From positions 1-32,698 of the IMG/VR virus record IMGVR_UViG_3300034063_000293: a stretch of DNA of 32,698 nucleotides; one strand, written 5' to 3'. Below, piece by piece: positions 19,293 to 27,246 of this stretch (within the stretch, counting starts at the first letter, position 1; each line of letters starts with the position of its first letter). Made by a program: the position numbers and the translations under genes. The notes beneath the pieces were generated by a model that was given only the letters and a program-made list of their open reading frames with translations, did not search any database and was not told the DNA's origin. The DNA is from a virus.

Positions 19293-19514
19293 TTACCATT
19301 TTTTATTTTCTATATTATAATCTGCGCAAAATTTATTAGTTCTTACATCTGCAATAATATAACCATATTTACTGTTTTGATTTGTCCAAAAGCAATTTAC
19401 TACCCAAGTATTTTCAAGTATATCATTATATTTATTTACAAAATTTTTACCATTGTGATAAACACCATTAATAAACATTGAATTTGATGTGGTTTGTGCT
19501 ACGATTGTTGTCAT
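19293..19514 (-). CDS. Unknown small protein under a phage-type promoter (73 residues)
   Basis: The protein MTTIVAQTTSNSMFINGVYH is rich in Asn and aromatic residues (NTWVVNCFWTNQNSKYGYII) and probably beta-structured. No family recognised. It begins in the shared context AATCATGACA and stands 29 bases after the -7 box of a 48-bp promoter unit that also precedes the genes ending at 26282 and 26839. It is therefore likely early and under the same control. Confidence 0.55.
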   Translation of the reverse strand: MTTIVAQTTSNSMFINGVYHNGKNFVNKYNDILENTWVVNCFWTNQNSKYGYIIADVRTNKFCADYNIENKKW

Positions 19515-19543
19515 GATTTCTTTTTTTGTTTTGTTTTATAAAG

Positions 19544-23837: not shown

Positions 23838-23966
23838 AAAAAAACCTTGTTGGTGTTACTAGTGATGGTTTACAATACAAGTATTGTAAGATAGTAACGC
23901 CAACAAGGCTGTTAATTAATTTTTAATTTATTGACCATCACATCAATGTTATATTTTATAAAGAGC
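23838..23966 (-). ncRNA. Structured leader RNA with intrinsic terminator and pseudoknot potential
   Basis: The transcript from the promoter at 23972..24002 would start near 23966. It can form a 17-position stem (CCTTGTTGGCGTTACTA 23908-23892 with TAGTAACACCAACAAGG 23861-23845, one C/A mismatch), followed directly by seven U (23844-23838). Inside the loop TACAATAC-TT-GTATTGTA forms an 8-bp hairpin (23888-23871). GTGATGGT (23941-23934), upstream of the stem, is perfectly complementary to ACCATCAC (23869-23862) in the loop, next to the right arm, so an H-type pseudoknot can form. This looks like an attenuator of the primase operon or an autonomous terminated RNA of about 130 bases. Confidence 0.65.
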
Positions 23967-23971
23967 TTGTG

Positions 23972-24002
23972 CAAAGGTAATAATTATATTGAAATAACCA
24001 AA
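23972..24002 (-). promoter_or_regulatory. Bacteroidota-type promoter of the replication operon
   Basis: Minus strand TTTG (24002-23999), exactly 19 bases, then TACCTTTG (23979-23972), matching the -33/-7 consensus TTTG-N19-TAnnTTTG. It faces the leader RNA and the HTH-primase operon and lies at the edge of the iteron array. Confidence 0.75.
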
Positions 24003-25576: not shown

Positions 25577-25855
25577 TTAATAAAATATTTGTGTGAAAAA
25601 TGGTTGTTCATCGTCTGATGGTGGTCTTTGCTTTGTCGATTTTTTAGTTGTTTTACTGGCAATCAATACGGCTTGTATGCTTATTAAATCGTTAATCTCG
25701 CACTTGATAGCGGTGCATTGGAATTCGCTGATGTTGTATAGCTTTTGCGTAATGAATGAACCTAGCACATTCTTACAAGTTTCTAATTGTTGGTTTGTTT
25801 CGCAACTCTTAACCCAGCTTTTTATGTGGTCGGTTGCAGATGTTATACTTAGCAT
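25577..25855 (-). CDS. Unknown small protein upstream of erf (92 residues)
   Basis: The protein MLSITSATDHIKSWVKSCET is helical in its first 70 residues with three Cys (SCET, TCKN, QCTA, KCEI region), then a basic linker (SKTTKKSTKQRPPSD) and an acidic aromatic tail DDEQPFFTQIFY. The tail resembles a partner-binding peptide. It is in the recombination operon 2 bases before erf. No family recognised. Confidence 0.55.
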   Translation of the reverse strand: MLSITSATDHIKSWVKSCETNQQLETCKNVLGSFITQKLYNISEFQCTAIKCEINDLISIQAVLIASKTTKKSTKQRPPSDDEQPFFTQIFY

Positions 25856-25899
25856 TTGTTTAATTGTTTTTTAGTTGTACTTTTGCAGTGCAATGTCAT
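25849..25899 (-). CDS. Possible leader peptide or gene remnant (16 residues)
   Basis: ATG 25899 lies in the context GCAATCATGACATTGC, the shared AATCATGACA start context, placed in the loop of an 8-bp stem. It reads MTLHCKSTTKKQLNKC and stops at 25849, overlapping the start of the following gene. It may be a coupled leader peptide, or the remnant of a gene of the same family as its neighbours. Very short, hence low confidence. Confidence 0.3.
   Translation of the reverse strand: MTLHCKSTTKKQLNKC
25855..25885 (+). promoter_or_regulatory. Plus-strand Bacteroidota-type promoter
   Basis: Plus strand TTTG (25855-25858), exactly 19 bases, TACTTTTG (25878-25885). It is a complete match to TTTG-N19-TAnnTTTG with the same spacing as the replication promoter, and it faces away from all genes. 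Two hairpins and a U-tract follow within 65 bases. Confidence 0.6.
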
Positions 25900-25948
25900 G
25901 ATTGCACTTTTTGTTTGTAGGCGCAGCGTAATTGCTGCGCCTATTTTT
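25887..25948 (+). ncRNA. Candidate plus-strand small RNA
   Basis: About 60 bases follow the plus-strand promoter. Hairpin 1 is AGTGCAAT-GTCATG-ATTGCACT (25887-25908), then TTTTTGTTTG, then hairpin 2 (25918-25943) with a 10-bp stem and five T. The stretch TGTCATGATT is perfectly complementary to AATCATGACA, the start region of the genes beginning at 27168, 26807, 26267 and 19514, and TTTTTGTTT can pair with their A-rich leaders. It could block their translation. It could also just be the complement of a fifth such leader. Promoter and terminator are seen; activity is inference. Confidence 0.5.
25918..25948 (+). terminator. Intrinsic terminator, plus direction
   Basis: The perfect 10-bp stem TAGGCGCAGC/GCTGCGCCTA with loop GTAATT is followed by TTTTT at 25944-25948. 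On the minus strand the hairpin is followed by ACAAACAAAAA, so it can terminate only plus-strand RNA. It is one of the most GC-rich hairpins in the genome. Confidence 0.7.
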
Positions 25949-25949
25949 A

Positions 25950-26267
25950 TTATCTATTTTCAGCTTCAAAAAATAATTTAGCATCGTGAATAAATCCCTC
26001 TTTACTTTGCGTGTAGGTAGGCAATGATTGCATGTAGGCATCTAATTCTGCATTGGTAGTATCTTCTACTTCGGCATCAAGGTTTTGAATAAAGTCTGCT
26101 AACTCTTGCATACTATCTGCAAGTTCAGAAACCTTTTGCTTTCTGTTCTGCTTCCAATAATCATCTGTTGGATATTTGTCTAATAATTCGTTAGCTACTT
26201 CAATTGAAATCATTTTGCTCCAATTGTTCCATAGCATGTCTTTTAAAATGTTTTGTTTTTGTGTCAT
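25950..26267 (-). CDS. Unknown acidic early protein (105 residues)
   Basis: The protein MTQKQNILKDMLWNNWSKMI is acidic and helical (VSELADSMQELADFIQNLDA), with no membrane segment or known domain. It starts in the context AATCATGACA after an A-rich leader, like its neighbours. Acidic small early proteins often inhibit host enzymes, but there is no direct evidence here. The plus-strand small RNA ends just at its stop codon. Confidence 0.55.
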   Translation of the reverse strand: MTQKQNILKDMLWNNWSKMISIEVANELLDKYPTDDYWKQNRKQKVSELADSMQELADFIQNLDAEVEDTTNAELDAYMQSLPTYTQSKEGFIHDAKLFFEAENR

Positions 26268-26281
26268 GATTTTTTTTGTTT

Positions 26282-26486: not shown

Positions 26487-26807
26487 TTAAAAGTTATATT
26501 CTAATTTTAATGCTTTTTTGAAATCTGCAAAATTATTTAATCTGCAAAATCTATTTGACTTTGTTAAGTTGTAATCACCAGCAAATCCATGTTTATTTAA
26601 AAATGGTTCGATTAGTGTATCTACATCAAGTAAGTATAATACATCGAATGAACCCCTACTGTACACTCGCATTGCCTGTGCTTTAGTGGTTGGGAATACT
26701 CTGCCTAATGAAAGAGCATTGCAGATGTGTTGATTTGGTTTCGCAACCCATAAACTTGTTACTTGTGAATTGCATTTGATTTGTGTTTGTAATTCTTTTT
26801 GTGTCAT
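26487..26807 (-). CDS. Unknown early protein (106 residues)
   Basis: The protein MTQKELQTQIKCNSQVTSLW is basic with a central part (VFPTTKAQAMRVYSRGSFDV) and an aromatic end. Its start (AATCATGACACAAAAAGAA) copies the initiation context of the gene at 26267. The first residues MTQK are shared with it, and both are early genes. No domain recognised. Confidence 0.55.
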   Translation of the reverse strand: MTQKELQTQIKCNSQVTSLWVAKPNQHICNALSLGRVFPTTKAQAMRVYSRGSFDVLYLLDVDTLIEPFLNKHGFAGDYNLTKSNRFCRLNNFADFKKALKLEYNF

Positions 26808-26838
26808 GATTTTTTTGTTTTTAAGGTTTTATAAATTA

Positions 26839-27168
26839 TTATCTAAGGTTTGAACCTGCTTGTCTATATTTAGCATTTTCTATCCATTGTTCCAAATTAT
26901 TTTTTCTCAATTTACCATCTTCAATTGCTTTTCTAACTGTATTATTTACGCTAATAGCAACTCTTTCTTCTTCTTCTTTAGTTAACTTTATTTTAGCTTG
27001 GCTAACTTTTTTTACTTTTAATTCAACAAATGGACTATCTGATAAGTTAGCAAATTGGTTTATCAATTTTTTTACTTCATTTGTTTTTAAAACTAATATA
27101 GTAGTTGTATTTAAATCTTGTGATATTACTTCTACTTGTCCGAATGTTTTGTGAAATTTTGTTGTCAT
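26839..27168 (-). CDS. Unknown basic early protein, first gene of the circle (109 residues)
   Basis: The protein MTTKFHKTFGQVEVISQDLN has a beta-strand half and a basic helical half (LTKEEEERVAISVNNTVRKA, then KYRQAGSNLR). It is the first gene after the late terminator and the first under promoter copy A, with the shared AATCATGACA start. Early host-takeover function is possible. No family recognised. Confidence 0.57.
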   Translation of the reverse strand: MTTKFHKTFGQVEVISQDLNTTTILVLKTNEVKKLINQFANLSDSPFVELKVKKVSQAKIKLTKEEEERVAISVNNTVRKAIEDGKLRKNNLEQWIENAKYRQAGSNLR

Positions 27169-27196
27169 GATTTTTTCTTTTCTTTTTATTGATATG

Positions 27197-27246
27197 CAAA
27201 TATACTATTATATATTTAGATAAAGCAAATATATTTTATTTATAGC
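27197..27246 (-). promoter_or_regulatory. Phage promoter unit, copy A (first early promoter)
   Basis: Minus strand CTATAAAT, 33 bases, TATATTTG (27204-27197), with an additional TTTG 21 bases upstream of the -7 box, so it also fits the host -33/-7 pattern. A second TATATTTG lies at 27233-27226. It drives the gene at 27168 and is probably the strongest early promoter, since it starts the circle. Confidence 0.6.

Follow-up and report, generated by a model that had tools for sequence, protein, structure and literature searches.

A predicted plus-strand antisense RNA with a loop complementary to the start codons of unrelated genes in an apparent Bacteroidota phage

The plus-strand feature analysed here is best read as a free-standing small RNA gene whose product would act in trans as an antisense RNA and keep translation from starting on a group of genes of the phage itself. 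We put the probability of this reading at about 0.7, with expression and repression being inferred. What the sequence itself provides is a promoter box, RNA structure, a terminator, conservation, covariation, complementarity between a hairpin loop and start codons, and a coordinated difference between linker and target leaders; that the RNA is transcribed and pairs in the cell, that it represses rather than activates, and when it acts are inferences. In the proposed mechanism, transcription by the host RNA polymerase would begin around 25890 and end past a second hairpin, giving an RNA of about 62 nt, and the first hairpin would expose GUCAUG for pairing with target start regions. Lying over the start codon and the adenines upstream of it, the RNA would block translation of the target genes together. 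In these hosts, initiation relies on leaders that are A-rich and weakly structured, adenines being favoured at -3, -6, -12 and -13 (PMC6847099). An RNA lying over UCAUGACA and the A-run should block it. GibS demonstrates that Bacteroides small RNAs can pair over start codons (PMC7366714). It may be noted as a counterpoint that the loop is short. Also, we know of no RNA chaperone for this phage system.

The window (the whole 32,698-base IMG/VR virus contig) has 100% of its plausible protein genes on the minus strand and appears to come from a phage of Bacteroidota bacteria. The gene of an ERF annealing protein adjoins the plus-strand feature, and the bacterial genomes with ERF homologues belong almost exclusively to Bacteroidota. 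No Rfam family, those of sar and OOP included, was met at gathering score over the whole window, and a tRNA search of the window found none. As far as sequence alone can tell, the original prediction of a plus-strand small RNA gene in an all-minus genome is confirmed (promoter box, two hairpins and U-tract, with expression unproven), its interpretation as a small RNA gene is supported, and the test for a trans-acting small RNA that asks for an independent unit with promoter and intrinsic terminator is met. The function was not given by that prediction; start-codon targeting was found in the present analysis.

The promoter had been described as a perfect TTTG-N19 element. An exact TTTG-N19-TACTTTTG match does exist at 25855-25885 (+), and the window has 3 occurrences of the pattern TTTG-N19-TANNTTTG for an expectation of 0.38, but the -33 part is not conserved: the TTTG is present in the window only, being absent from three relatives (G001, G002 and G003), and it overlaps the minus-strand start codon of the gene at 25577-25855. 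A -33 TTTG is described in B. fragilis and is not evident in Flavobacterium. The Flavobacterium -7 consensus is TAHHTTTG, with start sites 4-5 nt past its G (PMC6847099), and the box has been placed at -12 to -5 (PMC9723704); the -33 motif is much less evident in Flavobacterium, where AT-rich motifs are found near -18 and -28 (PMC6847099; also PMC9723704, PMC7366714). The Flavobacterium data require no -33 TTTG, and the Flavobacterium rule fits all four copies. The test for a Bacteroidota sigma-A promoter (TAHHTTTG -7 box with AT-rich sequence upstream) is met by TACTTTTG in 4 of 4 phages with a T-rich stretch upstream, the start site being inferred, and TTTTTAGTTGTACTTTTGCAGTGC is invariant across these four distinct phages (the window, G001, G002 and G003). 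From the Flavobacterium start spacing (PMC6847099, PMC9723704) the 5′ end is expected at 25890-25891, which coincides with the start of the helix that all four copies keep. Elsewhere in the window, another perfect match, TTTG-N19-TACCTTTG, was seen on the coding strand at 23972-24002 (-); it lies ahead of the gene at 23880 and is likely an operon promoter.

A scan for hairpins (perfect stem of at least 8 bp, loop of 3-8, and either G+C of at least 40% or a T-rich tail) returned only two in the 32.7 kb, at 25887-25908 and 25918-25943. Both lie directly after the promoter on the plus strand, in keeping with the claim of two hairpins and a U-tract within 65 bases, and the accompanying observations, a GTCATG loop in hairpin 1 and T-rich tails in the plus direction only, were likewise reproduced, T-runs following both hairpins in the plus reading alone. 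The 65-nt plus-strand fold has an energy of -31.3 kcal/mol (z = -6.4) that was equalled by 0 of 200 shuffles, and the 62-nt RNA from the inferred start still gives two hairpins when folded. The DNA inverted repeat of hairpin 1 extends to 25887-25908; with an RNA start at 25890-25891, the first helix would have 5 bp (GCAAT/ATTGC).

Table 1. Positions in the window of the promoter elements, the predicted RNA with its parts, and the putative target sites
Feature	Position	Strand	Remarks
-33-spaced TTTG	25855..25858	+	Exact match, but unkept in relatives; probably incidental
Core promoter	25867..25885	+	T-rich TTTTTTTAGTTG region (about -18) and -7 box TACTTTTG (25878-25885); fits TAHHTTTG rule (PMC6847099)
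Predicted small RNA, about 62 nt	25890..25951	+	Start at 25890-25891 and end in T-tract both inferred; fold -27.0 kcal/mol
Hairpin 1, GCAAT-GTCATG-ATTGC	25890..25905	+	Two pairs with two-sided compensatory changes; loop invariant
Pairing core TGTCATGATT	25894..25903	+	Complement of AATCATGACA at start codons
U-rich linker TTTTTGTTTG	25908..25917	+	Second putative pairing block with A-rich leaders; changes with target leaders in G003
Hairpin 2 and T-tract, predicted intrinsic terminator	25918..25948	+	Stem with two compensatory pairs; T-run conserved
Target site AATCATGACA	27163..27172	-	Start of gene 26839-27168
Target site AATCATGACA	26802..26811	-	Start of gene 26487-26807
Target site AATCATGACA	26262..26271	-	Start of gene 25950-26267
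Target site AATCATGACA	19509..19518	-	Start of gene 19293-19514; strongest predicted pairing

Taken together with its flank, the loop sequence (TGTCATGATT) occurs 6 times in the window, always on the plus strand and never on the other: once in the hairpin, once inside a gene (3823), and 4 times exactly at start codons of minus-strand genes, where it reads AATCATGACA. Since the loop is the exact complement of a start signal common to several unrelated genes, the RNA probably switches them off as a group, which remains a prediction. The further test for a trans-acting small RNA, an exposed seed complementary to several mRNAs at their initiation regions, is met, and when the predicted interaction of the first 31 nt of the RNA is ranked over the scored start regions of the window, the four targets take ranks 1, 2, 3 and 5. 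The shorter motif TCATGACA was found at 4 of 52 starts in the window (p = 2e-5), 3 of 47 in G001 and 5 of 49 in G003 (p = 7e-7), against 4 of 2031 in a control set of distinct start regions from other Bacteroidota-phage loci (an earlier, smaller control gave 1 of 1288). G002 taken alone is weak (1 of 26 starts, p 0.06, not significant). Whole records of 24 other phages hold 0-4 copies on either strand. Agreement among the targets peaks from -2 to +5 and falls beyond codon 2; that codon is ACA in every case, although ACA makes up only 47% of the threonine codons of the sampled window genes. Since the targets are mostly small genes in the neighbourhood of the recombination gene, shut-off of a part of the early genes is our best guess for the role. 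The same RNA is perfectly complementary over its whole length to the minus operon mRNA between genes 26267 and 25855, and a plus transcript acting in cis on that stretch only, for instance by creating an RNase III site or through transcription interference, has a precedent in lambda OOP (PMC12197685). We consider this unlikely, given that it leaves unexplained why loop and linker should match the start codons of several distant genes. If the RNA acts in trans as we favour, the operon mRNA, holding its perfect complement, may serve as a sponge, which is again an inference.

Relatives of the neighbouring 92-aa gene were found in four IMG/VR contigs, three of which are distinct (G001, G002 and G003). 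Relatives that keep the minus-strand leader without promoter and terminator would have refuted the original prediction; run on these three, the test left it standing in its main part, the -7 box with the T-rich stretch preceding it, both hairpins, the GTCATG loop and the T-tract being kept in 3 of 3; the -33 TTTG is not among the elements kept. Two-sided compensatory changes are present in G003 at two pairs per hairpin (four in all), a level reached by 0 of 500 shuffles and lost when the partner columns are slid. An outer pair of hairpin 1 in G003 is G-U on the plus strand and A-C on the minus strand, and therefore the structure favours a plus RNA. This pair is also one of the features not accounted for if a phage protein of the RegA type binds AUCAUGACA in start regions, with a minus-strand CAUGAC hairpin as decoy or autoregulatory site and the plus RNA irrelevant; nor would such a protein explain the conserved -7 box and the polarity of the terminator. 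The minus strand at the hairpin does resemble a target start region and about 30 T4 mRNAs are bound by RegA at their A-rich AUG regions (PMC3014915), but RegA sites are unstructured, and we regard this explanation as quite improbable. The base for conservation is thin, with four distinct copies known, three of them close. An exact-pattern search of genome contigs found no copy of the small RNA unit, the phage records gave no credible one, and wider IMG/VR patterns judged by the stem gave, among the matches listed, chance matches only beyond the four phages. The close relative G005 lacks TCATGACA, and its contig stops short of the small RNA region and is therefore uninformative.

The records of the relatives contain TCATGACA 5, 4, 6 and 6 times, in each case on the coding strand, and all of these sites are gene starts except the hairpin and one internal site common to the window and G002. 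The target genes belong to about 10 unrelated families at about 7 leader positions as judged by leader homology; we count some seven positions rather than ten independent gains because some leaders persist although the following gene has been exchanged. The leader of gene 27168 (window 27140-27200) is nearly identical in G003 (25840-25900) with a different protein behind it, the replacement setting in right after ATGACA, and the same was seen at two other leaders. The ERF start in G003 is TC-ATGACA, a motif missing from the ERF of the other three phages; among the homologues listed, no ERF from phages without the RNA has a TC-ATGACA start. The linker is TTTTTGTTTG in the window, G001 and G002 and fits AAAACAAAAA-type leaders; in G003 it is TGATTTTTTTAG, and 4 of the 5 G003 targets carry AAAAATCA a few bases upstream of TCATGACA, the leader at 25872 keeping the old type. 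Each RNA type pairs better overall with its own leaders (permutation 5/3003, p ~0.002, 15 leaders), a value that is indicative only, since the 15 leaders are not fully independent. The test of co-change between seed and target is thus met for linker against leaders, the 8-nt core itself being invariant (the perfect core in G003 is 8 nt versus 10 nt).

Different genes behind homologous leaders (e.g. window 27168 and G003 25872), with an ERF annealing protein next door, could also be taken to mean that the repeated start context is merely a recombination boundary, small genes being swapped behind a common leader and the hairpin being a captured leader copy. We give this little credence as the whole explanation, because promoter, compensatory stems and terminator, as well as the in-place gain of the motif by the G003 ERF and the coordinated linker difference, remain unexplained; it is compatible with the small RNA, and both can hold. 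A short minus-strand leader peptide (MTLHCKSTTKK...) starting inside the hairpin was rejected: ATGACA again forms the start of its frame, which in the window and in G003 overlaps the following start codon, but G001 and G002 lack 4 nt, a deletion that puts the frame out of register after 11 codons, and the conserved codons lack silent changes, which points to constraint on nucleotides. A DNA operator at hairpin 1 was also considered and fails to explain hairpin 2, the terminator and the start-codon matches.

About 120 other Bacteroidota-phage loci were scanned for a -7 box plus terminator, which gave look-alikes only and no proven second independent family. L317 at 11486 (-) and L327 at 6592 (-) have an antisense promoter TATCTTTG followed by TTTTTCATGATTTC and a terminator; the complement fits the start codon at L317 5836 (ATCATGAAAAA), the only other start with a close fit, and this is possibly a second anti-start RNA with one clear target. 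Gene-end terminators at L016 10086 (-) and L017 1816 (+) have the identical loop TTTCATGT on covarying stems (AGCTAGG/CCTAGCT versus AGCCGGT/ACCGGCT), and the complement of this loop, ACATGAAA, is present at two start codons in L017, none being seen in L016. An antisense mini-unit in L348 (6980-7035, -) and L351 (6930-6985, -) has TATCTTTG inside the leader of a 260/258-aa gene, then the common stretch aggttctttaatt and a terminator hairpin (stem GGCTTG/CAAGCC versus GCCATG/CATGGC).

Bacteroidota hosts initiate translation without Shine-Dalgarno signals, and a regulator covering the start codon and upstream adenines would be a natural solution in such hosts. To our knowledge, post-transcriptional control in Bacteroidota phages is little studied; among open-licence papers, to which our literature search was limited, we found no Bacteroidota-phage small RNA of this sort, and the present one would be, as far as we know, the first case in a Bacteroidota phage of an antisense circuit controlling several targets. 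We lean somewhat towards a wider view in which one tiny RNA is a phage-wide translational switch reading a start-codon bar code, genes joining by acquiring the leader AAAAATCATGACA or by being swapped behind it and RNA and bar code changing together, in short an RNA counterpart of T4 RegA. It would illustrate how a phage can hold genes that are unrelated and swappable under common control. The claim lends itself to direct testing, as it specifies where the RNA begins and ends, what forms its seed, which genes are targeted and which natural exchange two of the phages offer. If it is true, such circuits could be found from sequence alone by looking for hairpin loops whose complement is a start-codon context recurring within one genome.

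No sequence kinship to sar, OOP, GibS or RegA is shown. The sar RNA of phage P22 (68/69 nt) and the OOP RNA of phage lambda (77 nt) are, like the predicted RNA, very short phage RNAs with their own promoter and antisense repression of phage genes, sar blocking translation initiation; as described, each has one phage target, whereas the loop of the predicted RNA fits several unrelated phage genes (PMC12197685). Their hosts are Enterobacteria, and only a likeness of action is claimed. GibS of Bacteroides thetaiotaomicron is likewise a Bacteroidota small RNA that pairs over target start codons and represses (PMC7366714), but it is host-encoded and pairs through a long unstructured 5′ region, whereas the predicted RNA is phage-encoded and would use a hairpin loop and linker; the test for membership with GibS (long single-stranded 5′ region, host gene) is accordingly not met, the 5′ end being a hairpin and the gene lying in a phage. 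A further likeness, in way of working alone, is to T4 RegA, one phage regulator acting over the AUG and the A-rich part upstream of it in about 30 phage mRNAs (PMC3014915); RegA is a protein without a clear sequence consensus, whereas the predicted RNA would use an exact code of 8-10 nt.
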